Source: Streptomyces venezuelae (lineage in GTDB: Bacteria > Actinomycetota > Actinomycetes > Streptomycetales > Streptomycetaceae). Taken from it: DNA of 64,000 bases. The position numbers and the translations under genes were made by a program. The notes beneath the pieces were generated by a model. It was given only the letters and a program-made list of their open reading frames with translations, searched no databases and had not been told where the DNA came from. The stretch covers positions 5,332,001 to 5,396,000 of the forward strand of contig NZ_CP029192.1 in assembly GCF_008642315.1 (NCBI RefSeq), in the 5' to 3' direction. Of the stretch, positions 23,765 to 42,532 are shown one piece after another (the stretch's first letter is position 1; each line of letters starts with the position of its first letter).

Positions 23765-25192
23765 TTACGGCGCGGGCGCGCTCTCGGCGTTGGTGCTAGC
23801 CCCCCTTTCCGTACGGGGCCCAGCCCCAGGAACGGGCGGGTTCCGCCTGGCCAGGGCCCAGTACAGCACCGCGGGCACCACGAGCCCCACGATCCATGAG
23901 ATGTCCGCGCCGCCCAGCGGGTCGACCAGCGGGCCCGTGTAGAAGTGGGTGACGAGGAAGGGGAGCTGGGCGAGGAGGCCGATGCCGTAGACGGTCAGGG
24001 CGTCCCAGCGCCAGGCGCCGTAGCGGCCCCGCGGGTCGAAGAGGGCGGGGATGTCGTACCGCTCGCGGGAGATCAGGTAGTAGTCGACCAGGTTGATGGC
24101 CGACCACGGCGTGAAGAACGTCAGCAGGAACAGCAGGAAGTCCTTGAAGGAGGAGAGGAAGCTGTCCTTGCCCAGCAGCGCGACCGCCGTGCCCGCCACC
24201 ATGATCACCGCGATGTACGCGGCCCGTCCGCGCGCCCCGAGCACCTTCTGGCCGCGGAAGCCGCTGATGCTCGTGACCATCGACATGAACCCGCCGTAGG
24301 TGTTCAGGACGTTGATCGTCAGCTTGCCGAGCGCGATCACGAAGTACAGGAAGGAGGCGATCAGGCCGGTGCCGCCGAGGCCGACGACGTACCCGACCTG
24401 GTTGGCGAGGAACGCGTCGCCCGCGCTCGCCGCGACGAGCACCCCGAACGTCATCGACCACTGCGAGCCGATCGCCGAGCCCGACAGGGTCCACCAGAAC
24501 GTGGCCTTGGCGGAGGTGGTGCGCGGCAGGTAGCGCGAGTAGTCCGCCACGTACGGGCCGAACGCCAGCTGCCAGGACGCCGACAGCGACACGGCGAGCA
24601 GGAACATCGGCAGGTCGAAGTGGGCGTCGCCGAACAGCGCCCCCACGTCCACGCGGTCGAACAGCCGGATGCCGAGGTAGACGAAGGCGAGCGCGCAGAT
24701 CACGCTCGCCACCCGGCCGAGCACGTGGATGACGCGGTAGCCGACCGCCGCCATGACCGCCGTGACGACGGCGAAGACGACGATGCCCGTGGTGTCGTTC
24801 GTGTGCGTCAGCTCCGCCGTCGCCTGGCCCGCGAGGACGCTGCCGCTCGCGAAGAAGCCGACGTACATGAGGATGACGAGGAGCAGCGGGACGACCGCGC
24901 CCTTCACCCCGAACTGGGCCCGCGACTGGATCATCTGCGGCAGCCCCAGCTTCGGGCCCTGCGCCGAGTGCAGCGCCATGACCGCGCCGCCGAGCAGGTT
25001 GCCGAGGACGAGGCCGACGAGCGACCACACCACGTCGCCGCCGAAGACGACGGCGAGCGCGCCCGTCACGACCGCGGTGATCTGCAGATTGGCGCCGAGC
25101 CAGAGCGTGAACTGGCTGAACGCCGTGCCGTGCCGTTCGTCGTCCGGGACGACGTCGATGGAGCGCCGCTCCACCAGGTCTTCAGCTGCCAT
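23765..25192 (-). CDS. NCS1-family purine/cytosine permease
   Basis: A 475-residue transporter with about 12 membrane helices. The N-terminus (RHGTAFSQFTLWLGANLQITAVVTGALAVVFGGDVVWSLVG) carries the family's substrate-site helix 1, LGLPQMIQSRAQFG is the NCS1 signature loop, and FAPYV-like DYSRYLPRT follows. It likely imports a nucleobase, hydantoin or related heterocycle by sodium or proton symport. The ATG at 25192 is preferred over the TTG nine bases upstream. It lies directly downstream of the betaine-type ABC importer operon, on the same strand. Confidence 0.87.
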   Translation of the reverse strand: MAAEDLVERRSIDVVPDDERHGTAFSQFTLWLGANLQITAVVTGALAVVFGGDVVWSLVGLVLGNLLGGAVMALHSAQGPKLGLPQMIQSRAQFGVKGAVVPLLLVILMYVGFFASGSVLAGQATAELTHTNDTTGIVVFAVVTAVMAAVGYRVIHVLGRVASVICALAFVYLGIRLFDRVDVGALFGDAHFDLPMFLLAVSLSASWQLAFGPYVADYSRYLPRTTSAKATFWWTLSGSAIGSQWSMTFGVLVAASAGDAFLANQVGYVVGLGGTGLIASFLYFVIALGKLTINVLNTYGGFMSMVTSISGFRGQKVLGARGRAAYIAVIMVAGTAVALLGKDSFLSSFKDFLLFLLTFFTPWSAINLVDYYLISRERYDIPALFDPRGRYGAWRWDALTVYGIGLLAQLPFLVTHFYTGPLVDPLGGADISWIVGLVVPAVLYWALARRNPPVPGAGPRTERGASTNAESAPAP

Positions 25193-25240
25193 GCCGGTCA
25201 ACTCCCGCTGTCGGTACGCCTGTCAGTGAGTCGGTTACGC

Positions 25241-26176
25241 CTACTTCTTCGTGATGCCGTGCTGCTCCGCCCAGTCCTGGGCGACGTCCTCCGGGTCCTT
25301 CTTGTCCTTGTCCACGAGCCGGTTGAGCTCGGTGAGCTGTGCCGTCGTCAGGAGGGCGCCGAGGCGGGCGAGGGCCCTGCGGACCGTCGAGTCGGCCTTG
25401 CGGTCGGCGATCAGCGGGACGATGTGCTGGCCGGGGACGAGGTTCTTGGGGTCGGTCAGGACGACCCAGTGCTCGGCGGCGATGTCGGTGTCGGTGGTGA
25501 AGAGGTTCGCGACGTCGACGTCGCCCTTGCGCAGGGCGCCCTTCACCAAGGGCCCGGACGAGTCGAGCGACTTGAACTCCTTGAACTCGACTCCGTAGAC
25601 GTCCTTCAGGCCGACCGCGCCGACCGTGCGCTTCTTGACCTCGGCGGCGGCGCCGATCACCAGCTTGCCGTTGTGCTTCGCCAGGTCGGCGAGGGACTTG
25701 AGGCCGTACTCCTTCGCGGTCTCGCGCGTCACGACGAACGCGTCGGAGTCCTCGGCCCGCCCGTACGGGAGGATCTGCAGGCCGCGCGGGAGGCGCATGG
25801 CGAGGGCGTTCTGCATCTCGCCCTCCTCCGTGGCCTCCGCCTTCGGGTCGAGGTAGTGCAGGAGGGCTCCCTGGTACTCGGGGAGCAGGTCGATGTCGCC
25901 GCCCTTGAGCGCGGGGATGAGGATCTCGCGGGTGCCGAGGTTGGGGCGGACGTTCGTCTTCACGCCCGCCGCTTCCAGGGCCGCCGCGTACAGGTGGCCG
26001 AGGACCTGGTTCTCGGTGAAGTTGGCGGTGCCGATGGTGACGCCGTTCTTGCTGGAGCCGCCCCCGCCGCCGCCTGAACCCCCGCCGTCGAGGGAGGTGA
26101 TGCCGCCGCTGCAGGCGGCGAGCGCGGGAACGGACGCGGTGGCGAGCAGCCCGCCGAGGAGAGTCCTGCGGTTCAT
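25241..26176 (-). CDS. ABC importer substrate-binding lipoprotein, glycine betaine/choline type
   Basis: A 311-residue lipoprotein with a lipobox VPALAACSGG, a Gly/Ser linker and an OpuAC/ProX-type solute-binding domain (VTIGTANFTENQVLGHLYAAALEAAGV, LGTREILIPALKGGDIDLLPEYQGALLHYL, DSDAFVVTRETAKEYGL, NLFTTDTDIAAEHWVVLTDPKN). This fold binds quaternary ammonium compounds through an aromatic cage. It is the last gene of the four-gene importer operon. The true ligand cannot be read from sequence; context suggests a histidine betaine. Confidence 0.9.
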   Translation of the reverse strand: MNRRTLLGGLLATASVPALAACSGGITSLDGGGSGGGGGGSSKNGVTIGTANFTENQVLGHLYAAALEAAGVKTNVRPNLGTREILIPALKGGDIDLLPEYQGALLHYLDPKAEATEEGEMQNALAMRLPRGLQILPYGRAEDSDAFVVTRETAKEYGLKSLADLAKHNGKLVIGAAAEVKKRTVGAVGLKDVYGVEFKEFKSLDSSGPLVKGALRKGDVDVANLFTTDTDIAAEHWVVLTDPKNLVPGQHIVPLIADRKADSTVRRALARLGALLTTAQLTELNRLVDKDKKDPEDVAQDWAEQHGITKK

Positions 26177-26189
26177 GTCCTGGGTGCTC

Positions 26190-26861
26190 CTAAGCCTGCG
26201 GGGAGGGGCGGTGGCGGAAGAGGGCGCGCTGGAGGCCGGCCAGCGCGAGATCGAGTACGACGGCGACGACGGCCACGAGCACGGCGCCGCCGAGCACCTG
26301 GACGAGGTCGCGCTGGGCGAGGCCGTCGAAGACGTAGCGGCCGAGTCCGCCGAAGGAGACGTACGCGGCGATGGTGGCCGTCGCGACGACCTGGATGAGG
26401 GCGAGCCGCAGACCCGTCATGATCAGCGGCAGCGCGAGCGGCAACTCGACTTGCAGCAGCACCTGGTGGGCCCGCATGCCCTGGCCGCGCGCCGCGTCCC
26501 GCACCTCGGGGTCGACGGCGGTCATGCCCGCGTACGTGTTGGTGACGATGGAGGGTACGGCGAGCGCGACGAGCGCGATGTAGACGGGCCACATGGAGAG
26601 GCCGCTCGCCAGGAACACCAGCACGACGAGTCCGACGGTCGGCAGCGCGCGGCCGAAGGAGGCCAGGTTGATGGCGACGAAGGCGCCACGCCCCGTGTGC
26701 CCGATCAGCAGGCCGACCGGCAGGGCGATGGCGGCGGCGACGAGAGTGGCCAGCAGCGAGTACTGGAGGTGCTCGACGAGCCGGTGCCCGATGCCGTCGG
26801 GGCCGGTCCACTGGTCGCCGCTGACCAGCCAGGCGCCGAGGTCCTTGAAGAGTTCGTACAT
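26190..26861 (-). CDS. ABC importer permease, betaine type
   Basis: A 223-residue permease with about five or six membrane helices and the EAA-type loop DPEVRDAARGQGMRAHQVLLQVELPLALPLIMTGLRLALIQVVATATIAA. It is similar to OpuCB/ProW domains without the long N-terminal tail. The start ATG is 1 bp after the stop of the other permease gene. It pairs with the 215-residue permease to form a heterodimeric membrane channel. Confidence 0.92.
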   Translation of the reverse strand: MYELFKDLGAWLVSGDQWTGPDGIGHRLVEHLQYSLLATLVAAAIALPVGLLIGHTGRGAFVAINLASFGRALPTVGLVVLVFLASGLSMWPVYIALVALAVPSIVTNTYAGMTAVDPEVRDAARGQGMRAHQVLLQVELPLALPLIMTGLRLALIQVVATATIAAYVSFGGLGRYVFDGLAQRDLVQVLGGAVLVAVVAVVLDLALAGLQRALFRHRPSPQA

Positions 26862-26862
26862 G

Positions 26863-27510
26863 TCAGGCGCTCCTCCGGCGGCGGGTCCAGGGCGTCAGGA
26901 CGTACTGGAGCGTGACGAGCAGTGCGTCCGCGACGAGCGCGAGGAGCAGCGTGAGGACCACGCCGACGATCACGGGGGTGGGGAAGTTGCGCTGGAACCC
27001 GTCGGTGAAGAGCTGGCCGAGGCCGCCGTCGCCGATGTACGTCGCCACGGAGACGAGCGAGATCGACATGACCGTCGCGATCCGTACTCCGGCCATGATC
27101 ACGGGGAGGGCGAGAGGGAGTTCGACGGTGAGGAGTGTGCGGAGGGGCCGGGTGCCCATGGCCTTGGCGGCCTCTTTCGTCTTCGCCGGGACGGAGTCGA
27201 GTCCCTCGACGGTGTTCCTCAGGAGGACGACGAGGGTGTAGATCGTCAGGCCGATGACGGTGGTGGTGCGGGTGAGGCCGCTGACGGGGAGGAGCAGGAC
27301 GAAGACGGCGATGGAGGGGATGGTGAACAGGACGTTGGAGAGGCCGAGGAGGAGTCCGCGGAGGGGGCGGATGCGGTGGGCGACCACCGCCAGCGGGAGG
27401 GATATCAGCAGCCCCAGTGCCACTGCGGAGAGGGCGGCCTGGAGGTGGGCGAGGGTGAGGGTGGTGAGGTCGTCGGTGTGATCGCGTATCCACGACCAGT
27501 CGACGGTCAT
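26863..27510 (-). CDS. ABC importer permease, betaine type
   Basis: A 215-residue permease (LAHLQAALSAVALGLLISLPLAVVAHRI, LLGLSNVLFTIPSIAVFVLLLPV, EAAKAMGTRPLRTLLTVELPLALPVIMAGVRIATVMSI). Its ATG overlaps the TGA of the ATPase gene (ATGA at 27507-27510), so translation is coupled. It forms the channel together with the downstream permease. Confidence 0.92.
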   Translation of the reverse strand: MTVDWSWIRDHTDDLTTLTLAHLQAALSAVALGLLISLPLAVVAHRIRPLRGLLLGLSNVLFTIPSIAVFVLLLPVSGLTRTTTVIGLTIYTLVVLLRNTVEGLDSVPAKTKEAAKAMGTRPLRTLLTVELPLALPVIMAGVRIATVMSISLVSVATYIGDGGLGQLFTDGFQRNFPTPVIVGVVLTLLLALVADALLVTLQYVLTPWTRRRRSA

Positions 27511-28724
27511 GGGGTGGCCCCCGTCTCACTCGCCTGCGGGCCGGCGGGGGCTTGTCGCGCAGTTCCCCGCGCCCCTGACTGGTCCACCTCGCCCGGCGCC
27601 TCTGGGTGGGGCGGCTCGTTCGGTGGCGCTGGGGTGGACGACTTAGGGGCGCGGGGAACTGCGCGATCAGCCCCCGCCGGGCCGCGGACGGAACGACCCC
27701 TCGCGTGCGCGACGCTCGCACCCTCGTGGATGTCGGACCGGGACGTCACCCCCGTCAGGACGCCTCCCGCGTCGACGCGGGCCACCAGCCCCGTCGGGGC
27801 GGACAGGGACTCGTCCAGCGCCGAGAGGAGGGAGTCCGTGTCGCGGAGGGGCCGTACGGGGACGTCCGCGGACTCTCCGTCCTTGTGGCGCCAGGAAAGA
27901 GGCGCCCCGGACGCGGACAAGCGGAGCGTCCACGCTCCGCCCTCCGGAGCCGGCCCCTGCGGAACGCCCGACAACGTGGACAGGGACAGCAGCTTCAGGC
28001 CGCGCTCCGCGCCCAGGAAGTCCGCGACGAAGTCGTCCGCGGGGCGGGCGAGGAGCTCCGCGGGCTCCGCGCACTGCACGAGATGCCCACCCGTGCGGAA
28101 CACGGCTATGCGGTCACCGAGCCGCACCGCCTCGTCGATGTCGTGCGTGACGAAGACGATCGTCTTGCTCAACTCCCGCTGAAGGCGCAGCAGTTCGTCC
28201 TGGAGCTGGGTACGGACCACCGGGTCCACCGCTCCGAACGGCTCGTCCATGAGGAGGACAGGAGGATCCGCCGCCAGCGCACGCGCCACGCCCACCCGCT
28301 GCTGCTGGCCACCGGACAGCTGGTGCGGATAGCGGCGCCCGGCGTCGGGCGCAAGCCCGACCGTCTCCAGGAGCTCCGCCGCCCGCGCCCGCGCCTTCCT
28401 GCGGCCCCAGCCGAGCAGCAGCGGCACCGTGGCGACGTTGTCGAGGACCGTGCGGTGCGGGAAGAGGCCGGCCTGCTGGATGACGTAGCCGATGGAGCGG
28501 CGCAGTTCGGCCGCGTCCTGCTCCAGGACGTCGCGGCCGCCGACCCGGATGGTCCCGGAGGTCGGGTCGACCATCCGGTTGATCATGCGGAGGGTCGTCG
28601 TCTTGCCGCAACCGGAAGATCCGACGAGGACGGTCACGCCGCCTTCGGGCATGTCGAGGGTGAGGTCGTGGACCGCTGTCGTGCCGTTCGGGAAGCGCTT
28701 GTGGACCGTATCGAATTGGATCAT
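27507..28724 (-). CDS. ABC importer ATP-binding protein, betaine type, with repeat-derived tail
   Basis: A 405-residue ATPase: Walker [11 protein letters not shown], signature [16 protein letters not shown], Walker [13 protein letters not shown], His switch VTHDIDEA. The C-terminal regulatory region (to about residue 340) carries CBS-like traits ([19 protein letters not shown]). Residues about 346-360 and 383-397 are translated from two R1 repeats (27645-27687 and 27533-27578), an insertion compared with the usual ProV/OpuA length. The end is fixed by the ATGA overlap with the permease. It is the first gene of the operon. Confidence 0.92.
27533..27578 (-). repeat. R1 repeat inside the ABC ATPase coding region
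   Basis: CCTGCGGGCCGGCGGGGGCT then TCGCGCAGTTCCCCGCGC, inverted orientation. It encodes about residues 383-397 of the ATPase. Confidence 0.8.
27645..27687 (+). repeat. R1 repeat inside the ABC ATPase coding region, opposite orientation
   Basis: GGGGCGCGGGGAACTGCGCG followed by ATCAGCCCCCGCCGGG. It encodes about residues 346-360 of the ATPase, and forms an inverted pair with the copy at 27533. Confidence 0.8.
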
Positions 28725-28772
28725 GTGGAGTCCCTTGCCCGGCTGTATATCGTCATGCAGAGTTCTCGTTGT

Positions 28773-28791
28773 CTGAATAGGTTGTCAATAG
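28773..28791 (+). promoter_or_regulatory. Two-part motif CTGAATAG-3-GTCAATAG, candidate operator
   Basis: CTGAATAG at 28773-28780 and GTCAATAG at 28784-28791 lie in the gap between the divergent importer operon and the HAL-like gene. The same pair of octamers occurs on the minus strand between the decarboxylase gene and hutU (36691-36711), with a 5-bp spacer. It looks like a direct repeat TNAATAG. A shared regulator, such as the RpiR protein at 30447, is the natural inference. Confidence 0.5.
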
Positions 28792-28872
28792 TTCGCGACG
28801 CTCCGACATGAATCGCTGAGCGAAAAATGGCCGATGGGCAAGACGGAACGTCCGGTTGAGGAGGGTTTACGA

Positions 28873-30450
28873 GTGAAGTCGTCTCGTATCGCGGACATCG
28901 CGGCCAACGACAGAAAAGCGGTCGTCGTCCTCGACGGCCGGGGAATGATGGTCGCAGACGTCGTACGCCTGGCCGAATCCGATGCCCGCCCGGTCCCCGC
29001 GACCGACGGGATGAAGCGCGCCGAGGACTCCTGGAACGCCGCCAGGGAGATCGCCGCCTGGGGCCGCGTCTACGGCCGTTCCACCGGCGTCGGCGCCAAC
29101 CGGAACGAGGACGTGCCCACCGAGGCCGCCGCCGACCACGGCCTGAGACTGCTCCGCTCGCACGCGGGGGCCATCGGCGCCGAACTGCCCGCCCGGCAGG
29201 TCCGCGCGATGCTCGCCGTCCGCGCCAACCAACTCCTCGCGGGCGGCGCCGGACTGCGCCCGAGTGTCGTCACGGCGCTCTGCGAGGCCCTGGAGACCGG
29301 CGCCCACCCCACCGTCAACGAGTTCGGCTCCGTCGGCACCGGAGACATCGCGGCCCTCTCCCAGATGGGCCTCGCGCTCGCCGGGGAACACCCGTGGCAG
29401 GGCCCCGGCAGGGCTCCCGCGGCACAGCCCCTCGACAACAACGACGCCCTCGCCCTGATCAGCAGCAACGCCCTCACCCTCGGCCAGTCCGCGCTCGCCC
29501 TGCACGAACTGCGCGGCCTGATCGGTGCCACGCAGGTGGTCGCGGCGCTGTCGCTGATGGCGGTCGACGGGTCGTACGAGGCGTACGCGCTGCCCGTGCA
29601 CGAGGCGCGGCGGCACCCCGGGTCGTACGCGGTCGCCGAGCGCATGCGCCGCCTGCTGGGCGCCCCCGACCGCCCCACTCCGCCCCTCGGCCGCATCCAG
29701 GACCCCTACGGCTTCCGGTGCGTGCCGCAGATCCACGGCCCCGCGCACGACGCGGCGGACGCCCTCGAGGGTGTCCTGACCGTCGAGATCAACGCGGCCG
29801 CGGAGAACCCGCTGATCTCGCCGGAGGACCTGGCCGCGTACCACCACGGCGGCTTCTACCTGGCCCAACTCGCCCTCGCGCTCGACCACTTCAGGCTCGC
29901 CGTGACCCAGGCGGCCCGCCTCTCCACCTCCCGGCTCTCCACCCTCAACGAACCGGCCTTCACCCGCCTGCGCCCCTTCCTCGCGGACGGCGAACCGGCC
30001 TCGTCCGGCGTCATGATCCTCGAATACGCCGCCGGGGCCGCCCTCGGCGACCTGCGGGCCTTCTCCGCGCCCGCCTCCCTCGGCCACGCCGTGCTCTCCC
30101 GCGGCGTCGAGGAACAGGCGAGCTTCGCCTCGCTCGCCGCCCGGCAGACCCTGCGCGCCTGTGAGGCGTTCCGCATGGTCGTGGGATGCGAACTGGTGGC
30201 CGCCACCAGGGCGTTGCGACAGCGGGACATGCGGCTCGATCCGGACACTCCGCTCGCGCGAGCCTTCGAACTCGCCGACTCCGTCCTGGAAGCGGAGTTC
30301 GCGGACCGGCCGCTGACGGATGATGTGACGGCGGCGGCGGGCCTGCTCGACCGGTTCACCACGGTCTGGTCGGAACTCGGCGCGGCGACGAACGCGGGAA
30401 CGACCGCCGGAACGACAGCGGGTACGGACATCATGAGGGGGACGGCATGA
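28873..30450 (+). CDS. Histidine-ammonia-lyase-family protein lacking the standard MIO triad
   Basis: A 525-residue protein of the aromatic amino acid lyase family. It keeps YGRSTGVGANRNED (active-site Tyr loop), LLRSHAGAIG, SSNALTLGQSALAL and QDPYGFRCVPQIHG, but the cofactor site reads FGSVGTGDIAAL instead of GSVGASGDLAPL. One residue is missing and Ala-Ser-Gly becomes Gly-Thr-Gly, so the MIO electrophile probably cannot form in the normal way. The HAL family is known to include MIO-free members such as ergothionase, which removes trimethylamine. GTG 28873 has GAGGAGG upstream and is preferred to ATG 28834. The gene is divergent from the betaine-type importer and overlaps the RpiR gene by ATGA. 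Confidence 0.85.
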   Translation: MKSSRIADIAANDRKAVVVLDGRGMMVADVVRLAESDARPVPATDGMKRAEDSWNAAREIAAWGRVYGRSTGVGANRNEDVPTEAAADHGLRLLRSHAGAIGAELPARQVRAMLAVRANQLLAGGAGLRPSVVTALCEALETGAHPTVNEFGSVGTGDIAALSQMGLALAGEHPWQGPGRAPAAQPLDNNDALALISSNALTLGQSALALHELRGLIGATQVVAALSLMAVDGSYEAYALPVHEARRHPGSYAVAERMRRLLGAPDRPTPPLGRIQDPYGFRCVPQIHGPAHDAADALEGVLTVEINAAAENPLISPEDLAAYHHGGFYLAQLALALDHFRLAVTQAARLSTSRLSTLNEPAFTRLRPFLADGEPASSGVMILEYAAGAALGDLRAFSAPASLGHAVLSRGVEEQASFASLAARQTLRACEAFRMVVGCELVAATRALRQRDMRLDPDTPLARAFELADSVLEAEFADRPLTDDVTAAAGLLDRFTTVWSELGAATNAGTTAGTTAGTDIMRGTA

Positions 30451-31280
30451 GTGACAGCCCTGCCGCGCGACTGCAAGTGCTCTTCGAGGGCCACCGGCTC
30501 ACACCCACCCAGCGGCGCATCGCGCACTGCATGGTGCGCAGGGCCGCCGACGCGCCCTTCCTCTCCAGCGTGGAGCTCGCCGAACTCGCCGGCGTCAGCC
30601 AGCCCTCGGTGACCCGCTTCGCGGTCGCCCTCGGCTTCGACGGCTATCCGGCGCTGCGCAGACACCTGCGGGACGTGGCACCCGCGGAGGAGTCGGGCGC
30701 GACGGCCGCCAACGAGTACCAGCAGGCGGTCGACGCGGAGATCGAGAACCTCAGGCACCTGGCGGAGGTCCTCGCCGACCCGGAGCCGGTCGAGCGCGCC
30801 GGACGCCTCATCGCCGGGTCCCGGCCCCTGCCCGTCCTCGGCCTGCGGGCCGCCGCGTCCCAGGCGTACGGCTTCTCGTACTTCGCCGCGAAGGTCCACC
30901 CCGAGGTGCGCCTCCTCGACGAGGGCGGCACGATGCTCGCCGACCGCATCGACGCGGCGGTCCGCGCCGGTGCCTCGGCCCTCCTCTGCTTCGCCCTGCC
31001 CCGCCATCCCCGCGAGGTCGTCGACGCCCTCGCCTACGCCCAGTCGGCGGGCCTGACCGTCGTCACCGTCGCCGACTCCGCCTTCGCCCCCGTCGCCGCC
31101 CACTCCGACCTCCTCCTCCCGGCGGCCGTCGGCACGGGCCTCGCCTTCGACACGGCCTGCGCCCCGATGCTCCTCGGCCGCGTCCTCCTGGAAGCCATGT
31201 GCGACAACCTGCCGGACGCGCAGGCCCGCCTGGAGGAGTTCGACGTGCGGGCGGCGGCGCGGGGACTCTTTGTGGAGTGA
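30447..31280 (+). CDS. MurR/RpiR family transcriptional regulator
   Basis: A 277-residue regulator. Residues 1-77 form the HTH_6 domain (LTPTQRRIAHCMVRRAADAPFLSSVELAELAGVSQPSVTRFAVALGFDGYPALRRHL) and residues 110-260 a SIS sugar-isomerase-like effector domain (AGRLIAGSRPLPVLGLRAAASQAYGF, AGASALLCFALPRHPREVVDALAYAQSAGLTVVTVADSAF). Its ATG overlaps the stop of the HAL-like gene (ATGA), so it is co-translated and probably controls that operon and the divergent importer. It could act at the CTGAATAG/GTCAATAG motif. Confidence 0.92.
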   Translation: MSDSPAARLQVLFEGHRLTPTQRRIAHCMVRRAADAPFLSSVELAELAGVSQPSVTRFAVALGFDGYPALRRHLRDVAPAEESGATAANEYQQAVDAEIENLRHLAEVLADPEPVERAGRLIAGSRPLPVLGLRAAASQAYGFSYFAAKVHPEVRLLDEGGTMLADRIDAAVRAGASALLCFALPRHPREVVDALAYAQSAGLTVVTVADSAFAPVAAHSDLLLPAAVGTGLAFDTACAPMLLGRVLLEAMCDNLPDAQARLEEFDVRAAARGLFVE

Positions 31281-31290
31281 TGCACGCGAA

Positions 31291-31325
31291 GGCGGCGCCG
31301 CGCCCGGGGGGAGCGCGGCGCCGCC
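31291..31325. terminator. Bidirectional hairpin terminator
   Basis: GGCGGCGCCGCGC (31291-31303) pairs with 31313-31325 around a 9-nt loop. It lies between the convergent RpiR and roadblock genes. Confidence 0.7.
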
Positions 31326-31339
31326 GGGTGGCCCGGACG

Positions 31340-33740: not shown

Positions 33741-35105
33741 TCAGTCCTCGTCGCGCGCGCGGAGTACCACCTTGTTCACGCCCCACAGGGCGACGCCGAT
33801 CGCGATGAGGACACCGGCGCGGATGTAGACCTCCGCGGGGCGGTCCGCGAGGGGGCTCGCGAGGATCAGGGCCGTGACGGCGCCGAGCACCGGCAGGGCG
33901 GTCGGGGTGCGGAAGTGCTTGTGCTCGACGGGGTCGCGGCGCAGGACCAGGACCGCCACGTTGACCACCGCGAACACGCACAGGAGCAGGAACGCCGTGG
34001 TGTCGCCGAGGCCCTCGATCTCGCCCGTGGAGACCAGCCCGATGGCCAGGAGGGAGACGAAGACGATGCCGACGACGGGGGTGCGGCGCCCGGCCAGGAC
34101 GCGGCCCATCGCGCGCGGCAGGATGCGTTCGTTGGCCATGCCGTAGCAGAGCCGCGAGGCCATCATGATGTTGATCAGCGCCGAGTTGGTGACCGCGAAC
34201 AGGGCGATCAGGGCGAAGAGTTCGTGCGGGAAGTCGACGCCGCCCGCCTTCACGACCTCGAGCAGCGGGCCGCTCGACCCCTCCAGTGTCCCGGAGTCGA
34301 CGAGGAGGGACGACACCAGCGCGACGAGGACGTAGATCGTGCCGGTGACCGCGACACCGATGAAGATCGCGCGCGGGAAGGTGCGCACCGGGTCCTTCGT
34401 CTCCTCGGCCATGTTCACCGAGTCCTCGAAGCCGACGAAGGCGAAGAAGCCGAGGGCCGTGGCGCCGAGCACGCCGGTCATCAGGGCGTATCCGCTGCCG
34501 TCGGACTCGAACTCGGTGAGGCGCGAGGCCTCGCCGTCCCCGTTCAGGACGGCGTACGCCCCGATCGCGAGGATGATCGCGAGACCGGTGAGCTCGACGA
34601 GCGTGAGCACCACGTTGGTCTTCACCGACTCCGACACGCCCCGCATGTTGAGCGCCGCGAGCAGCACGATGAAGGTGATGGCGATCAGGGTCGGCGGCAG
34701 CGCGTCGCCGGTGAGTTCGGCGAGGTAGTCACCGCTGAAGGCGCGGGCGGCGGCGCTCGCGGAGGCGAGCCCGGAGCACATCACCATGAAGGCGATGATG
34801 AAGGTGAGGAACGGTGCTTTGAACGCCTTCTGCGTGTAGAGCGCGGCACCGGCCGCCTTCGGGTACTTGCCGACCAGTTCGACGTACGACGCCGCGGTCA
34901 GGATCGCCACGACGAAGCCGATCGCGAACGGCAGCCAGAGCGCGCCGCCGACCTTCCCCGCGACCTTGCCGGTGGTGGCGTAGATGCCGGTGCCGAGGAT
35001 GTCGCCGACCACGAAGAGGATCAGCAGCTTGGGGCCGATGGCCCGGTGCAGCGCGCCCTCTTCGGCGGGCGGTGATGCGGTGGTGGACGTGTCGGATGTC
35101 GTCAC
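33741..35105 (-). CDS. APC-family amino acid permease
   Basis: A 454-residue transporter with about 12 membrane helices. The N-terminal signature AIGPKLLILFVVGDILGTGIYATTGKVAGKVGGALWLPFAIGFVVA holds the unwound helix 1 binding motif GDILGTGIY; FFAFVGFEDSVNMAEETKDP is the classic APC/CAT loop before helix 7. It imports a cationic or other amino acid by proton symport. GTG at 35105 with GGGAGG upstream. The neighbouring type III decarboxylase suggests a basic amino acid or histidine. Confidence 0.9.
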   Translation of the reverse strand: MTTSDTSTTASPPAEEGALHRAIGPKLLILFVVGDILGTGIYATTGKVAGKVGGALWLPFAIGFVVAILTAASYVELVGKYPKAAGAALYTQKAFKAPFLTFIIAFMVMCSGLASASAAARAFSGDYLAELTGDALPPTLIAITFIVLLAALNMRGVSESVKTNVVLTLVELTGLAIILAIGAYAVLNGDGEASRLTEFESDGSGYALMTGVLGATALGFFAFVGFEDSVNMAEETKDPVRTFPRAIFIGVAVTGTIYVLVALVSSLLVDSGTLEGSSGPLLEVVKAGGVDFPHELFALIALFAVTNSALINIMMASRLCYGMANERILPRAMGRVLAGRRTPVVGIVFVSLLAIGLVSTGEIEGLGDTTAFLLLCVFAVVNVAVLVLRRDPVEHKHFRTPTALPVLGAVTALILASPLADRPAEVYIRAGVLIAIGVALWGVNKVVLRARDED

Positions 35106-35220: not shown

Positions 35221-36633
35221 TCACAGGTTCCGCAGCGCGTCCCGTTCCGTTCCGCCGCCGGCCTCCGCCACGATCTCGTCCAGCGTCTGCGGCTCGCGCA
35301 CCACGGCGAAGCGCACGTCGTCGGCGTCGGCGGCGAACCCGTGCACACCGGGCCTGGCAAGGCTGTTGTACGAGTAGTGCTGGGCGAAATAGTAGGCGCC
35401 GGTGTCCAACGCGGCCACGTAGTCACCGGGTTCGAGCAGCGGCAGCGGGCGGTTCTCGGCGAGCAGGTCGCCCGCGAAGCAGGCCGGGCCCGCGACGTCC
35501 TGACCGACGGCGGGACCGCTCTTGGGCAGCCCCTTCGCGTCGAACGCGGCGATCCGCAGCGGCCACGACGCGGGCGCGTACACGGTCCTCGTCGCCACCT
35601 GCACGCCCGCGTGCGTCACGGCGATGGGCCGGCCCCCCGCCCGCTTCGCGTACTCGACGCGGGCCAGCACCGTGCCGTGCTTGGCGAGCAGCGAGCGGCC
35701 GAACTCGGTGACGATTCCGTACCGCCCGTCGAGCAGCCCCGGCACCCGGGACTTGAGGCGGCGCGCGTACTGCGCGTGGGTCGGGGTCTCGTCGTCCGAG
35801 CCGAAGTTGACCGGCAGGCCGCCGCCGATGTCGACGGTGTCCACCTGGTGCCGCCCGGCGCGTTCGTTGATCTCCTCCGCCAGTTCGTACGCGGCCGCCA
35901 CGCCCCGCACCATCTTCTCCAGGGGCATGCCCTGCGACCCGGAGTGCGCGTGCAGGCGGGTCAGCCACGGCCGGTCGAGGAAGGCGCGGATCACCCACTC
36001 CCTGGCGTCCTCGTCGCGCAGCGGCACCCCGAACTTCGACGTGGCCGTCGCCGTCGAGAGGGCGTCGATCGCGCCGCCGCCGATCTGCGGGTTGACGCGG
36101 ATGCCGATGGGGGAGCCGGTCAGTGCCGACCGGGTCATCGCGTCCAGACGGGCCAGTTCCTGCGGGTTGTCCGCGTTCACGGCGATGCCGAGCGCGAGGG
36201 CCTCGCGGAGTTCGGCGGGGGTCTTGGCGGGCGAGTCGAGGACGGTCGCGGTGGGCGGCATCCCGGCGGCCCGCGCCAGGGCCAGCTCGCCGGGGCTCGC
36301 CACCTCGGCGCCGATCCCCGCCGCGCGCAGCAGCCGCAGGACCGGCACGAGCGGGGTCGCCTTCACCGCGAAGGCGTGCAGGACGGGGGTGCCGGGCGGG
36401 ACGACGGCCTCGAAGGCGGCGTGCAGGGCCGCGGCGCTCGCGCGGATGCCGGCGACGTCGAGGAGGCCCGCGACGGGGGCGGCGGGGCCGACGACGCCCT
36501 GCTCGACGGCCGCGCGGATGGCGCGGTCGCGGCGGGCGGCGGCGTCACTCCCAAGAGTGGAGGGTGCGGTGCTTCCGGGTGCCGCGTCCGCGCGGAGAAC
36601 CGTGGTCTGGTCGTTGTCCTCGTCGTGGCCCAT
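35221..36633 (-). CDS. Type III PLP-dependent decarboxylase (DAP/ornithine decarboxylase fold)
   Basis: A 470-residue enzyme. The PLP Lys lies in LHAFAVKATPLVPVLRLL, followed by GIGAEVASPGELALARAAG, GIRVNPQIGGG, LHAHSGSQGMPLE, VDIGGGLPVNF, VTEFGRSLLAKHG and the C-terminal substrate region GPACFAGDLLAENRPLPLLEPGDYVAALDTGAYYFAQHYSYNS. This is the alanine racemase-like barrel of diaminopimelate or ornithine/arginine decarboxylases. A lysA role is unlikely because it sits in a catabolic island. It is divergent from hutU and shares the regulatory gap. Confidence 0.88.
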   Translation of the reverse strand: MGHDEDNDQTTVLRADAAPGSTAPSTLGSDAAARRDRAIRAAVEQGVVGPAAPVAGLLDVAGIRASAAALHAAFEAVVPPGTPVLHAFAVKATPLVPVLRLLRAAGIGAEVASPGELALARAAGMPPTATVLDSPAKTPAELREALALGIAVNADNPQELARLDAMTRSALTGSPIGIRVNPQIGGGAIDALSTATATSKFGVPLRDEDAREWVIRAFLDRPWLTRLHAHSGSQGMPLEKMVRGVAAAYELAEEINERAGRHQVDTVDIGGGLPVNFGSDDETPTHAQYARRLKSRVPGLLDGRYGIVTEFGRSLLAKHGTVLARVEYAKRAGGRPIAVTHAGVQVATRTVYAPASWPLRIAAFDAKGLPKSGPAVGQDVAGPACFAGDLLAENRPLPLLEPGDYVAALDTGAYYFAQHYSYNSLARPGVHGFAADADDVRFAVVREPQTLDEIVAEAGGGTERDALRNL

Positions 36634-36690: not shown

Positions 36691-36711
36691 CTATTGACTA
36701 GCTCTATTCAG
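36691..36711 (-). promoter_or_regulatory. Two-part motif CTGAATAG-5-GTCAATAG, candidate operator
   Basis: On the minus strand CTGAATAG (36711-36704) and GTCAATAG (36698-36691) flank AGCTA. It is the second occurrence of the pair seen at 28773-28791. It overlaps the -35 box proposed for hutU, a position suited to repression. Confidence 0.5.
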
Positions 36712-36771: not shown

Positions 36772-38433
36772 ATGTCAGGACCCCGCCCCGTACGGGCGCC
36801 GCGCGGTACGGAACTGAGCGCCCTGGGATGGCAGCAGGAAGCCGCCCTCCGCATGCTGCAGAACAACCTCGACCCCGAGGTCGCCGAGCACCCCGACAAG
36901 CTCGTCGTCTACGGCGGCACCGGCAAGGCGGCCCGCGACTGGCGCTCCTTCGACGCGATGGTCCGCACGCTCAAGACCCTGAAGCAGGACGAGACGATGC
37001 TCGTCCAGTCCGGCCGCCCCGTCGGCGTCATGCAGACCCACGAATGGGCCCCGCGCGTCCTCATCGCCAACTCCAACCTCGTCGGCGACTGGGCGAACTG
37101 GGAGGAGTTCCGCCGCCTGGAACAGCTCGGCCTCACCATGTACGGCCAGATGACGGCCGGCTCCTGGATCTACATCGGCACGCAGGGCATCCTCCAGGGC
37201 ACGTACGAGACGTTCGCCGCGGTCGCCGCGAAGAAGTTCGACGGCACGCTCGCCGGAACCATCACCCTCACCGCCGGTCTCGGCGGCATGGGCGGCGCCC
37301 AGCCCCTCGCCGTCACGATGAACGACGGCGTCGCGATCTGTATCGACGTCGACCCGCGCGCCATCGAGCGCCGCATCGAGCACAAGTACCTGGACGTGCA
37401 GGCGGACTCCCTGGAGCACGCGCTCCAGCTGGCGGTCGAGGCCCGCGACGCCCGGCGCCCCCTCTCCATCGGCCTCCTCGGCAACGCGGCCGACCTGCTC
37501 CCGCGCATGCTCGCCGAGGGCGCCCCCATCGACATCGTCACGGACCAGACCTCGGCCCACGACCCGCTGTCGTACCTGCCGACGGGCGTCGACTTCGACG
37601 ACATGCAGACGTACGCGACGAAGGACCCGGCGGGCTTCACCACCCGCGCGCGCGAGTCGATGGCCAAGCACGTCGAGGCCATGGTCGGCTTCATGGACGC
37701 GGGCGCCGAGGTCTTCGACTACGGCAACTCGATCCGCGGCGAGGCACAACTCGCGGGCTTCGACCGCGCGTTCGCGTTCCCCGGCTTCGTCCCCGCCTAC
37801 ATCCGCCCCCTCTTCTGCGAGGGCAAGGGCCCGTTCCGCTGGGCGGCGCTCTCCGGTGAGGCGTCCGACATCCACAAGACGGACAAGGCGCTCCTCGACC
37901 TCTTCCCGGAGAACGAATCCCTCCACCGCTGGATCAAGATGGCCGGCGAGCGCGTCCACTTCCAGGGCCTGCCCGCCCGCATCTGCTGGCTCGGCCAGGG
38001 CGAGCGCGACAAGGCGGGCGACATGTTCAACGACATGGTCGCCAACGGCACGCTCGCCGCGCCCCTCGCGATCGGCCGCGACCACCTGGACTGCGGTTCG
38101 GTGGCCTCCCCCTACCGCGAGACGGAGGCCATGCTCGACGGCTCCGACGCGATCGCCGACTGGCCGCTCCTCAACGCGATGGTGAACGTCGCCTCGGGCG
38201 CCTCCTGGGTCTCCATCCACCACGGCGGCGGCGTCGGCATGGGCCGCTCCATCCACGCGGGCCAGGTCTCGGTCGCCGACGGCACGAAGCTCGCCGGCGA
38301 GAAGATCCGCCGCGTTCTCACGAACGACCCGGGCATGGGCGTCATCCGGCACGTGGACGCGGGATACGACATCGCGGAGTCGGTGGCGGACGCGAAGGGT
38401 GTGCGGGTTCCCATGCGAGAGGGCGAGGCGTGA
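36772..38433 (+). CDS. hutU: Urocanate hydratase
   Basis: A 553-residue enzyme with the full urocanase pattern: [45 protein letters not shown], the NAD-binding [24 protein letters not shown], and the C-terminal [16 protein letters not shown] and [22 protein letters not shown]. It uses NAD as an electrophile to convert urocanate to imidazolone propionate. GAGGAGG precedes the ATG. It is the first gene of the hutU-M20-hutF-hutI set. A thiourocanate-processing role is also conceivable given the context. Confidence 0.96.
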
Positions 38434-39740
38434 GTAATTCGGTGTCTCCGGGGCCAGATTCAGCCCCTCCGGCGTTCGAGGAGCGGGGTCCGGGGCGGAG
38501 CCCCGTGTCCTCCGCCCCGTCCTTCCAGGAGATGTGGCGGGACCTGGCTTCCATCGGCCGCGACGCTGACTCCGGTGGCTACAGGCGGTACGCCTGGACC
38601 CGCGCGGACGCGGACTGCCGAGCCTGGTTCAAGGCGCAGGCGGACACCCGCGGACTGACGTACGAACTGGACCGCAACGGCAACCAGTGGGCGTGGCTCG
38701 GCGATCCCGCGGCCGGTGACGCCGTCGTCACGGGCTCCCACCTGGACTCCGTCCCGGACGGCGGCGCGTTCGACGGCCCGCTGGGCGTGGTGTCCTCGTT
38801 CGCGGCCCTGGACGAACTCCGGGCACGCGGCGCGCAGTTGACCCGCCCCCTGGCGATCGTCAACTTCGGCGACGAGGAGGGCGCCCGCTTCGGCCTGGCC
38901 TGCGTGGGCTCCCGCCTCACCGCGGGACAGCTGACGGTCGAGGCCGCGCACCGGCTGACGGACGGCGACGGCGTGACGCTGCCGAGGGCGATGGAGGCGG
39001 CGGGCTACGACCCGTACGGCATCGGCCCCGACCCCGAACGCCTGGCCCGCATCGGCGCGTTCGTGGAGCTGCACGTGGAGCAGGGCCGCGCCCTCGACCT
39101 CTCCGGCGACCCGGTGGGCATCGCGTCCGCCATCTGGCCGCACGGCCGCTGGCGCTTCGACTTCCGGGGCGAGGCGAACCACGCGGGCACGACCCGGCTC
39201 GTCGACCGCCGCGACCCGATGCTGTCGTACGCGGAGACGGTCCTCGCCGCACGCCGGGAGGCCGAACTCGCGGGCGCGGTCGCCACCTTCGGCAAGATCT
39301 CGGTCGAGCCGAACGGCGTCAACGCGATCCCGTCGCTCGTACGCGGCTGGCTGGACTCGCGCGCGGCCGACCAGTCGACGCTGGACACGGTGGTGACGGG
39401 CATCGAGAAGGCGGCCCGCGAGTACGCGGAGCGGAACGGCATCGACCTGGACGTGGTCCGCGAGTCGTTCACACCGGTGGTCGAGTTCGAGGACGCGCTG
39501 CGGGACGAGCTGGGCAGGATCCTCGGCGCCCGCGCGGAGCAGCCGCGCCCGCTCCCCGTCCTCGGCACGGGCGCGGGCCACGACGCCGGCATTTTGTCGG
39601 GGTCGATCCCCACCGCCATGCTGTTCGTACGGAACCCCACGGGTGTCTCGCACTCCCCGGCCGAGTTCGCCGCCGAGGACGACTGCGTGGCCGGGGTGAC
39701 CGCACTGGCCGACGTACTGGAAGGGCTGGCGTGCAGGTGA
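38430..39740 (+). CDS. M20-family amidohydrolase (allantoate amidohydrolase-like)
   Basis: A 436-residue binuclear metallopeptidase-type amidohydrolase: [22 protein letters not shown] (metal His/Asp), [10 protein letters not shown] (Glu base), [31 protein letters not shown] and [11 protein letters not shown]. Family members release ammonia or cleave carbamoyl/ureido amides. In the hut setting it may replace HutG and hydrolyse N-formylglutamate, which is an inference. The GTG start overlaps the hutU stop (GTGA). Residues about 10-27 are translated from an R2 repeat. Confidence 0.9.
38457..38509 (+). repeat. R2 repeat inside coding sequence
   Basis: CAGCCCCTCCGGCGTTCGAG, then GCGGGGTCCGGGGCGGAGCC, match the blocks at 341-430 and 41109-41284. 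It is in frame in the M20 amidohydrolase gene. Confidence 0.75.
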
Positions 39741-41104
39741 CGACGGAGAGCTCGACGGGCACCACTTACTGGCTGGAGCATGCCTGGCTCGGCACGAACG
39801 TCGAGCCGGGCGTCGCGGTCGACGTGGAGGGCGACCGGATCACCGCCGTCCGCAAGGGCGTCGAGGCACCCCCGCCCGGGGCGACGGTCCTGCGCGGCCT
39901 GACGCTCCCGGGCCTCGCGAACGCCCACTCGCACGCCTTCCACCGCGCGCTGCGCGGCACCGTCCAGGTCGGTTCCGGCACGTTCTGGACGTGGCGCGAG
40001 GTCATGTACTCGGTGGCCGACCGCCTCACTCCCGACACGTACCACGCGCTGGCGCGAGCGGTGTACGCGGAGATGGCGCTGGCCGGCATCACGACGGTGG
40101 GCGAGTTCCACTACCTCCACCACGCACCCGGCGGCACGCCCTACACGGACCCGAACGCGATGGGCGAGGCGCTGATCCGGGCGGCGGCGGACGCGGGCGT
40201 ACGCATCACGCTCCTGGACACGGCGTACGTGGCGTCGGGCCTCCTCGACGCGGACCGCGGCAAGGCGCCGGACCGCCACCAGCTGCGCTTCTCCGACGGT
40301 ACGACGGAGGCGTGGGCGGAGCGGGCCTCGCTCCTCAAGGACCGCCCGCACGCCCGGATCGGTGCGGCGATCCACTCCGTGCGGGCGGTCCCGGCGCGGC
40401 AGCTGGCCACGGTGGCGCAGTGGTCGTCCGCCCGTACGGCCCCCCTGCACGTCCACCTCTCCGAGCAGACGGCGGAGAACGACGCGTGCATGTCGGCACA
40501 CGGCTGCACGCCCACGCAACTCCTCGCGGACCACGGAGTCCTGGGCCCCCGCACGACGGGCATCCACAACACCCACCTCACGGAAGAGGACATCGCCCTG
40601 CTGGGCGGCTCCTCGACCGGCACCTGCATGTGCCCGACGACGGAACGCGACCTCGCGGACGGCATCGGCCCGGCGCTCCGCCTCCAGCGGGCGGGCAGCC
40701 CCCTCTCCCTGGGCAGCGACAGCCACGCGGTGATCGACATCCTGGAGGAGGCCCGCGCCATGGAGCTGAACGAACGCCTCCGCTCCCACACGCGCGGCCA
40801 CTGGACGGCGGCGGCACTGCTCCGCGCGGCGACGGCGGACGGCCACGCGGCCCTGGGCTGGCCGGACGCGGGCGTCATCGAGCCGGGGGCTCTGGCGGAC
40901 CTCACCACGATCGCCCTGGACTCGGTCCGCACGGCGGGCCCCGTCCCACGCCTGGCGGCGGAGACAGCGGTCTTCGCGGCGACGTCGGCGGACGTCCGCC
41001 ACACGGTGGTGGGCGGCACCCACGTCGTACGCGACGGCGAACACGCGCTGGTCCCGGACGTACCGTCGGCGCTGACGGAGGCGGTGGGGGCGCTGAGAGA
41101 TTGA
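39731..41104 (+). CDS. hutF: Formimidoylglutamate deiminase
   Basis: A 457-residue amidohydrolase. Metal-binding PGLANAHSHAFHRALRG and GEFHYLHHAPGG, then VHLSEQTAENDAC, GIHNTHLTEEDIALL and SLGSDSHAVIDI agree with HutF, which deaminates N-formimidoyl-L-glutamate to N-formyl-L-glutamate. Starts with GTG 39731 (GTG 39737 is an overlapping alternative) and overlaps the M20 gene stop. The next step, deformylation to glutamate, has no HutG-type gene here. Confidence 0.93.
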   Translation: MQVTTESSTGTTYWLEHAWLGTNVEPGVAVDVEGDRITAVRKGVEAPPPGATVLRGLTLPGLANAHSHAFHRALRGTVQVGSGTFWTWREVMYSVADRLTPDTYHALARAVYAEMALAGITTVGEFHYLHHAPGGTPYTDPNAMGEALIRAAADAGVRITLLDTAYVASGLLDADRGKAPDRHQLRFSDGTTEAWAERASLLKDRPHARIGAAIHSVRAVPARQLATVAQWSSARTAPLHVHLSEQTAENDACMSAHGCTPTQLLADHGVLGPRTTGIHNTHLTEEDIALLGGSSTGTCMCPTTERDLADGIGPALRLQRAGSPLSLGSDSHAVIDILEEARAMELNERLRSHTRGHWTAAALLRAATADGHAALGWPDAGVIEPGALADLTTIALDSVRTAGPVPRLAAETAVFAATSADVRHTVVGGTHVVRDGEHALVPDVPSALTEAVGALRD

Positions 41105-41108
41105 AGCG

Positions 41109-41284
41109 TTTTCCCCGACCCCGCCCCTTCCCGAAACCGGGGCTCCGCCCCAGACCCCGCTCCTCAAACGCCGGAGGGGCTAAGAATTAGCCCGTCCGGC
41201 GATTGAGGACAGAGCCCGAAGGGCGATTCTGGGGTCCAGGGGGCGAAGCCTCCTGGTTTCGGGAAGGGGCGGGATCGGGGAAAG
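41109..41284. repeat. Long inverted repeat (R2 element) between hutF and hutI
   Basis: TTTTCCCCGACCCCGCCCCT and the rest of a 30-nt left arm (41109-41138) pair with 41255-41284 with about two mismatches. Inside, GCTCCTCAAACGCCGGAGGG pairs with AGCCCGTCCGGCGATTGAGG around a centre at 41185. The whole 176 bp forms one imperfect cruciform. It sits in the transcribed gap of the hut operon. Confidence 0.85.
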
Positions 41285-41322
41285 GACCTCGCCGGACCCC
41301 CACCCCCCCTGGAGCAGCAACC

Positions 41323-42495
41323 ATGACCACCACCCTCATCACGAACATCGCATCCCTGGTCACCAACGACCCCGCGCAGGGAGACGGCACCCCCCTGGGC
41401 CTCCTGACGGACGCGGCCGTAGTCCTCGACGGCGACACGATCGCCTGGGTGGGCCCGACCTCCAAGGCCCCGTCGGCAGACGAGTCGTACGACGCCGCAG
41501 GCCGCGCCGCGATCCCCGGCTTCGTCGACTCCCACTCCCACCTCGTCTTCGCGGGCGACCGCACCCAGGAGTTCAACGCCCGCATGTCGGGCCGCGCGTA
41601 CGAGGCGGGAGGCATCCGCACGACGGTGGCGGCGACGCGAGCGGCTACGGACGCCGCACTGGAGGCGAACCTCACCCACTACCTGGAAGAGGCCCTCCGC
41701 CAGGGCACGACCACGTTCGAGACGAAGTCGGGCTACGGCCTGAACACGGAGGACGAGTCCCGGGCCCTCCGCATCGCGGCGAAGCACACCGACGAGGTGA
41801 CCTTCCTCGGCGCGCACATCGTCTCCCCGGACTACGCGGAGGACCCGGCGGCGTACGTGGACCTCGTCACCGGCGAGATGCTGGACGCCTGCGCCCCCCA
41901 CGCCCGCTGGATCGACGTCTTCTGCGAGAAGGGCGCGTTCGACGGCGACCAGGCCCGCGCGATCCTGACGGCGGGCAAGGCGAAGGGCCTGCACCCGCGC
42001 ATCCACGCGAACCAGCTGTCGTACGGTCCCGGGGTGCAGCTGGCCGTGGAACTGGACGCGGCATCGGCGGACCACTGCACGCACCTGACGGACGCGGACG
42101 TCGACGCGCTGGCGAACAGCTCGACGGTGGCAACCCTCCTCCCCGGTGCCGAGTTCTCGACCCGAGCCGAATGGCCCGACGCCCGCCGCCTCCTGGACGC
42201 GGGCGCCACCGTGGCCCTCTCCACGGACTGCAACCCCGGCTCGTCCTTCACGTCCTCCGTCCCCTTCTGCATCGCCCTGGCGGTGCGGGACATGGGCATG
42301 ACCCCGGACGAGGCGATCTGGTCGGCGACGGCGGGCGGCGCGGCAGCCCTGCGCAGGACGGACGTGGGCCGGGTGACGGCAGGAGCGCGAGCGGACCTCG
42401 CCCTCCTGAACGCCCCGAGCCACGTCCACCTGGCGTACCGTCCGGGAGTCCCGCTGGTCGGCGAGGTGTGGCGCAAGGGCGTGCGGGTGGCATAA
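41323..42495 (+). CDS. hutI: Imidazolonepropionase
   Basis: A 390-residue amidohydrolase: metal site [57 protein letters not shown] and [11 protein letters not shown]. It hydrolyses 4-imidazolone-5-propionate to N-formimidoyl-L-glutamate, linking hutU to hutF. ATG 41323 with GGAG upstream; the upstream open frame runs through the palindromic repeat. The 20-bp 3' end (AAGGGCGTGCGGGTGGCATA) is repeated in tandem beyond the stop. Confidence 0.95.
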
Positions 42496-42515
42496 GGGCG
42501 TGCGGGTGGCGTAAG
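42477..42515 (+). repeat. Tandem duplication across the hutI stop codon
   Basis: AAGGGCGTGCGGGTGGCATA and AAGGGCGTGCGGGTGGCGTA are adjacent; the TAA stop of hutI lies at the junction. Confidence 0.8.
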
Positions 42516-42532
42516 CCGGGCGGCCTGGGGGA

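Follow-up and report, generated by a model that had tools for sequence, protein, structure and literature searches.

A histidine ammonia-lyase relative lacking the MIO triad, paired with its own importer and coupled to histidine degradation in Streptomyces: a proposed hercynine trimethylamine-lyase

We analysed a 64,000-nucleotide stretch of the Streptomyces venezuelae chromosome (hereafter the window), in which a protein of the histidine ammonia-lyase (HAL) family is encoded beside a four-gene ATP-binding cassette (ABC) importer and an RpiR-family regulator. Loss of the triad of the 4-methylideneimidazole-5-one (MIO) cofactor, partnership of the lyase with the importer, coupling to the histidine degradation (hut) genes and a shared operator-like site were observed by computation. 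The substrate and the chemistry of the lyase, and binding of the site by RpiR, we infer. With moderate confidence, we propose that the unit is a side-entry to histidine degradation, in which hercynine would be taken up, trimethylamine eliminated and urocanate passed into the Hut pathway; the lyase probably makes hercynine an ordinary food. The locus consists of the following features.

25241-26176, minus strand: importer substrate-binding protein (SBP), OpuAC family (PF04069, 185 bits)
26190-26861, minus strand: importer permease B (weak, sub-cut-off matches to choline and ProW permease models; conserved adjacency)
26863-27510, minus strand: importer permease A (weak, sub-cut-off matches to ProW and choline permease models)
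27507-28724, minus strand: importer ATPase, ProV-like (TIGR01186 proV, 304.6 bits against a cut-off of 326.6)
28774-28791, plus strand: operator-like site TGAATAG-N4-TCAATAG between the ATPase and lyase genes, one of two genome-wide
28834-30450, plus strand: MIO-less HAL-family lyase, 538 residues, proposed hercynine trimethylamine-lyase (PF00221, 370 bits; putative substrate)
30447-31280, plus strand: RpiR-family regulator gene (HTH_6, 43.9 bits, gathering threshold 28.3)

The original prediction described an importer divergent from the lyase, followed by a coupled RpiR gene. ORF calls and profile searches found all six open reading frames in place with the expected domains: the OpuAC-type importer occupies 25241-28724 on the minus strand and diverges from the lyase, and the lyase and RpiR genes overlap by 4 bp. 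The RpiR protein gives full-length weak matches to RpiR equivalogs and no Pfam match to the sugar-isomerase (SIS) ligand domain at E 0.001.

The lyase had also been described as MIO-less, with a GTG triad one residue shorter than the normal site, and this description was borne out. When the loop is aligned with that of HutH from the same genome (GSVG-TG-DIAALSQ versus GSLG-CSG-DLAPLSH; GSVGTGD versus GSLGCSGD without gaps), it is one residue short and the Ser of the triad is gone. The hutH equivalog model gives the lyase 284.6 bits, below its cut-off of 539.15, and source annotations name the homologues histidine or aromatic amino acid ammonia-lyase. We aligned the window lyase with 104 of the 160 loci with a lyase match, leaving out L001-L032 (repeats, true HutH), L113-L129 and L150-L152 (short copies), and L138, L139, L140 and L157 (<380 residues after trimming); no lyase gene was called in L132 and L151 in the neighbourhood comparison. 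None of the 105 aligned homologues has the A-S-G triad, and 102 have GTGD, the exceptions being L153, L137 and L148; G, T, G and D are individually retained in 105, 104, 103 and 105 rows, and the last Gly of the triad is replaced by Ala in two. Judged from these sequences, the triad loss is a family-wide clade trait and not an isolated defect of one protein, because GTGD is kept across the alignment. In a tree of 44 proteins, the lyase family forms one clade (support 100/98), ergothionase a separate clade (100/100) that does not include the window lyase, and the five HAL rows group apart from both (98/98). The approximately unbiased test does not reject a tree in which the two MIO-less groups join (p-AU 0.25).

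It is very unlikely that the protein acts as an additional histidine ammonia-lyase whose MIO is shortened or derived from Thr. The HAL fold and imidazole-site residues are kept, and the gene appears co-regulated with hutU while the true hutH (708 bits) lies 1.9 Mb away on the 8.94-Mb chromosome and lacks the operator-like site; on the other hand, the loop is one residue short, in two members the triad ends in Ala instead of Gly, and the activity would be redundant because a true HutH scores over the cut-off in 13 of 14 lyase genomes. A catalytically dead lyase with a sensory or regulatory role in the RpiR/hut system would account for the lost cofactor and the overlap with the regulator gene. 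We consider it highly improbable, as the lyase has its own importer and Tyr80, His110, Ser210, Ser211, Ala213, Gln289, Arg295, Glu324 and Glu426, among them the catalytic Tyr, Arg and Glu426 and the imidazole His, are invariant in 105/105.

A HAL paralogue of a different kind lies near the lyase and hut genes in two loci (L136:13173-14642 and L155:12358-13860, both minus strand). GAAGE replaces GASGD in its loop, so that the Ser is lost, and it falls outside the lyase, ergothionase and HAL groups in the tree; in L136 it lies beside an ornithine-cyclodeaminase-like gene and an RpiR gene. From its loop, it is possibly another MIO-less lyase.

Of 150 Streptomyces genomes, 62 contain a lyase homologue (E up to 1e-100); at E up to 1e-60, so do 20 of the 246 genomes sampled at class level and 11 of the 296 sampled at phylum level. 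The three samples overlap, and 11 different genomes outside Streptomyces have a match. Importer and lyase co-occur. Among the Streptomyces genomes, 44 of the 62 that have a lyase match also have a close SBP orthologue (at least 69% identity; one partial, in G085), as against 0 of the 88 lacking such a match (Fisher's test about 1e-23, without correction for kinship). The 0/88 is bound to the threshold of E 1e-100, as at least G013, G095 and G107 encode a lyase more remote in sequence (E 9e-87 to 3e-69). Among 80 named Streptomyces loci, counting those with enough flank, the ATPase gene is divergent from and adjacent to the lyase in 60/72, RpiR is present in 67/79 and hutU in 54/63. Eight full-flank loci have neither RpiR within 1.5 kb nor hutU, and the importer is beside the lyase in all eight; in one of them, L072, RpiR is 3 kb away. 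Of the 11 genomes outside Streptomyces, 8 have importer genes next to the lyase (L130, L131, L134, L136, L137, L153, L154, and G353, whose locus L119 has only the ATPase in view). Chance placement of an ordinary osmoprotectant system next to the lyase would explain the OpuAC family membership; the 0/88, the recurrence of the pairing outside Streptomyces and a binding pocket in which the glycine-betaine cage is not kept make this extremely improbable.

The importer neighbourhood varies in some loci. In another Streptomyces clade (L138, L140, L142, L143, L145 and L146), a conserved roadblock/kinase-like block of roadblock-sized small genes and one gene of ~820-1090 residues separates the permeases from the SBP-lyase pair. 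In L141, L144, L148, L149 and L156, where the adjacent ABC importer is missing, a major facilitator superfamily (MFS) transporter adjoins the lyase, with scores below the cut-offs of aromatic-acid/cation subfamily models.

The hut genes hutU, hutF and hutI had been placed a few kb from the locus, and all score over their model cut-offs.

36692-36710, minus strand: operator-like site TGAATAG-N6-TCAATA upstream of hutU, the other of two genome-wide
36772-38433, plus strand: hutU, urocanate hydratase (TIGR01228, 897 bits, cut-off 375)
38430-39740, plus strand: AAH, allantoate-amidohydrolase-family gene of the hut cluster (NF006770, 662.7 bits, cut-off 372)
39731-41104, plus strand: hutF, formimidoylglutamate deiminase (TIGR02022, 543 bits, cut-off 413)
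41203-42495, plus strand: hutI, imidazolonepropionase (TIGR01224, 367 bits, cut-off 298)

The start of the AAH gene overlaps the end of hutU, and the true hutI is the plus-strand frame at 41203-42495, not the longer minus-strand frame at the same place (41164-42555). The coupling of the lyase to histidine degradation is strong. In L154, whose genome belongs to the same phylum but another class, rpiR, a sodium symporter gene, hutH, the ATPase, two permease and SBP genes, the lyase, AAH, hutU, hutF and hutI follow one another in a single direction, and many gene ends overlap. In 5 of the 11 non-Streptomyces genomes (G382, G273, G223, G424 and G495), the only hutU of the genome lies no more than 10 kb from the lyase, with a chance of about 1.5e-9 under random placement. 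The link to hut is found both in the L154 operon and in the shared operator-like site.

The pattern TGAATAGN{3,7}TCAATA has just two matches across the 8.94-Mb genome, at 28774 and at 36692-36710 of the window, compared with no occurrence of the reversed pattern in the genome and 0/100 in window shuffles. The pattern was built from both sites and their orthologues, and the genome count therefore shows exclusiveness. Across the 150 Streptomyces genomes there are 75 sites in 66 genomes (two for the reversed control); the hutU-type site is present in 59 genomes, 36 with and 23 without a lyase match (E 1e-100), and the importer-type site in 13. Among the loci, the site upstream of hutU is found in 63/67, and in the importer/lyase gap TGAATA is found in 62/70 and exact TCAATA in only 13/70. 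Because a -35-like TTGAC falls within the site, its conservation may in part be that of a promoter. At hutH, which was considered as a further target, only half-site matches with one mismatch were found. RpiR is likely the regulator that acts at the sites before importer/lyase and hutU.

On the other side of the hutU site, a diaminopimelate-decarboxylase-like gene (35221-36633, minus strand; lysA 216 bits, below the cut-off of 298) diverges from hutU, and behind it lies an APC amino acid permease gene (33741-35105, minus strand). The decarboxylase-like gene holds the same place in most Streptomyces loci that contain hutU.

These components could work together as follows. The ABC importer would take up a histidine betaine, most likely hercynine, which EgtD produces and from which ergothioneine is made. 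The lyase would remove trimethylamine by β-elimination; by analogy with HAL, Tyr80 would be the base, His110 and Glu426 would hold the imidazole and Arg295 the carboxylate. A quaternary amine has no N-H, and on chemical reasoning the electrophilic MIO would thus be dispensable. Urocanate would then pass to HutU, AAH, HutF and HutI, and RpiR would regulate the whole through the shared site.

Is the substrate hercynine or ergothioneine? The original prediction allowed both, and the data favour its hercynine-to-urocanate half over its thiourocanate half. The 14 lyase genomes examined have one urocanase-family gene each (a fragment in G505); in the window's genome it is hutU, which scores 650 with the thiourocanate hydratase model (cut-off 930). 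A profile search found thiourocanate hydratase over the cut-off in 0 of the 14, and the thiourocanate route was not preferred. With no thiourocanate hydratase over the cut-off and one urocanase-family gene each, urocanate is the probable product, which would make hercynine, not ergothioneine, the probable substrate. EgtD is present in 7 of the 14; the window's own genome encodes it. In L130, hutH, hutU and the importer lie on one side of the lyase and egtD, egtC, egtB and egtA, all over the cut-off, on the other. Hercynine is the one compound compatible with lyase, hut and egt alike.

The active site also bears on this choice. We compared the lyase family with 120 ergothionase relatives and a few HALs; statements on ergothionase residues rest on this alignment. 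The loop deletion, Val86, Ser210-x-Asn212-Ala213 and Ala429 are common to the lyase family and ergothionase, itself an established trimethylamine-lyase, and are not those of HAL. Tyr398 is common to the lyase family and HAL: ergothionase has Lys383 there (115/120 relatives), which we take to be an important active-site residue, and 103/105 lyase homologues have Tyr, which favours hercynine over ergothioneine. Glu397 (104/105), His337 (102/105) and His338 (100/105) are unique to the lyase family. Six diagnostic columns are shared with ergothionase only, eight with HAL only and four are unique, and the likeness to ergothionase is therefore local, around the lost cofactor, rather than global. A structure model of the lyase (predicted local distance difference test score, pLDDT, 90.1; predicted template modelling score, pTM, 0.89), whose underlying alignment included six ergothionase rows, has ergothionase 6s7j as its top Foldseek match.

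The lyase could accordingly be regarded as an actinobacterial ergothionase, converting imported ergothioneine to trimethylamine and thiourocanate, with the shared deletion and Ser-x-Asn-Ala, the Foldseek match, a common origin of the clades that is not rejected, the egt operon in L130 and a cysteine-dioxygenase-like gene beside some lyases in its favour. We hold this to be very doubtful in view of the 0/14 for a thiourocanate hydratase over the cut-off, the Tyr at Lys383, the separate clades and an SBP with Phe and Tyr at Gly244 and Phe293, the EgtU determinants named in PMC9732360.

The cysteine-dioxygenase-like gene (PF05995) has close matches in 6 of 22 genomes, 18 of which were chosen as lyase carriers, and in 5 of the 6 it is no more than 8 kb from the lyase; a homology search found no match in the window's own genome. 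With LacI and amidohydrolase-like genes it forms a trio that adjoins the locus in L130, L132, L133, L136 and L159. Its presence suggests possible sulfur chemistry on ergothioneine upstream of hercynine. One could imagine that Actinobacteria recycle ergothioneine via hercynine: the dioxygenase-like enzyme would oxidise the sulfur to a sulfinate, which would fall off to leave hercynine and sulfite, and a second, possibly independently evolved MIO-less HAL-family enzyme would split hercynine to trimethylamine and urocanate for Hut. We think such recycling quite unlikely.

The binding protein complicates the assignment. Its nearest solved structures are Lmo1422 (4z7e) and EgtUC (9egh), at about 100 bits. 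Among the loci plus window with a match, 84 in all, 75 entered the SBP alignment (L131 is absent), which follows EgtUC numbering; the pocket positions are those given in PMC9732360. Tyr341 is replaced by Asp (72/75), Tyr443 by Gln (64/75), Tyr419 by Phe (74/75), Phe293 by Tyr (73/75), Lys242 by Ala or Asn (72/75), Thr275 by Arg (72/75) and Gly244 by Phe (72/75); Glu375 and Arg379 are retained in 74/75. With Gly244 and Phe293 not kept, the SBP was ruled out as an EgtU orthologue. At the four cage sites the window SBP has Tyr, Asp, Phe and Gln, which is not a four-aromatic cation cage. The SBP of L154 alone keeps the ProX-like Lys, Asn-Thr-Tyr and Tyr. The label betaine-type importer, as first applied, is thus true by family only, because two of four cage aromatics are replaced in nearly all lyase-linked SBPs.

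Such a pocket leaves room for a different N-substituted histidine. The substrate might be a mono- or dimethylated histidine or an opine-like conjugate, from which the lyase would free the corresponding amine and urocanate: the Asp, the frequent Gln and the Arg at Thr275 suit a protonated amine or an extra carboxylate better than trimethylammonium, and the hut link holds equally. However, the residues around the lost cofactor match a trimethylamine-lyase, the L154 SBP retains its ProX-like residues, and an amine with N-H should be harder to expel without MIO. We rate this alternative as unlikely.

Several results weigh against hercynine uptake and breakdown as proposed here. The pocket change, seen in the SBP sequences, is the strongest argument against a plain betaine importer, with two of the four cage aromatics retained and an Asp at a third site. 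The importer was not seen at the lyase in 3 of the 11 non-Streptomyces genomes, and hutU is not within 10 kb in 6 of them, several of which are in many contigs. EgtD is present in only half of the 14 genomes, and elsewhere the compound would therefore have to come from outside. By Z, 6s7j is tied with tyrosine aminomutase and HAL, and ergothionase does not stand above HAL. The 23 genomes that have a hutU-type site and no lyase match at E 1e-100 indicate that the regulator serves hut by itself too.

Two further features flank the locus.

23765-25201, minus strand: NCS1-family permease, an optional importer neighbour (PF02133, 191 bits)
31290-31326, plus strand: G+C-rich hairpin after RpiR, a possible terminator (-42.9 kcal/mol, z -2.7; equal fold in 3/200 shuffles)

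Of the 69 named Streptomyces loci with sufficient flanking sequence, 20 have the NCS1-family permease (nucleobase/allantoin type): it neighbours the importer in 16 of them, and in the other 4 a lyase that has no importer.

Many soil actinobacteria carry such a cofactor-less HAL relative beside its own importer, sharing a DNA switch with hut. Among the open-access papers listed for hercynine, none describes an enzyme of its breakdown in the title or visible abstract, subscription papers being outside this scope; the one listed for hercynine together with urocanate is a metabolomics study. If our proposal is true, 62 of the 150 sampled Streptomyces species have a hercynine lyase, the enzyme is a source of trimethylamine in soil, and the family provides a natural test of how a MIO enzyme works without its cofactor.

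The locus resembles several known systems in part. Ergothionase (Treponema denticola, PDB 6s7j/6s7q; Burkholderia sp. HME13) has the HAL fold and the same loop deletion, and is without MIO according to PMC13405746. It shares Ser-x-Asn-Ala with the lyase, in which equivalents of Tyr53, His83, Arg280 and Glu411 are present. In contrast, the identity is ~25%, the lyase belongs to another clade, Tyr stands for Lys383, Ala for Trp61, Thr for Arg57 and Glu397 for Gln382, and canonical hut genes take the place of thiourocanate hydratase. HutH is like the lyase in fold, imidazole-site His and Glu, carboxylate Arg and hutU link; unlike HutH, the lyase lacks A-S-G, scores below the hutH cut-off and coexists with a true HutH. 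The EgtU and OpuC/ProX importers likewise combine an OpuAC-type SBP, two permeases and a ProV-like ATPase, with equivalents of Glu375 and Arg379. The lyase-linked SBPs differ from them in having Asp and Gln for two cage Tyr and Ala or Asn for Lys242, and in not keeping the EgtU-specific Gly244 and Phe293. Finally, the four canonical genes of the Streptomyces hut cluster (hutU-AAH-hutF-hutI) lie 5.5 kb downstream of the lyase locus; unlike in a plain hut cluster, Hut here seems to be supplied by a second lyase, MIO-less, which has an importer to itself and is preceded by the same operator-like site.

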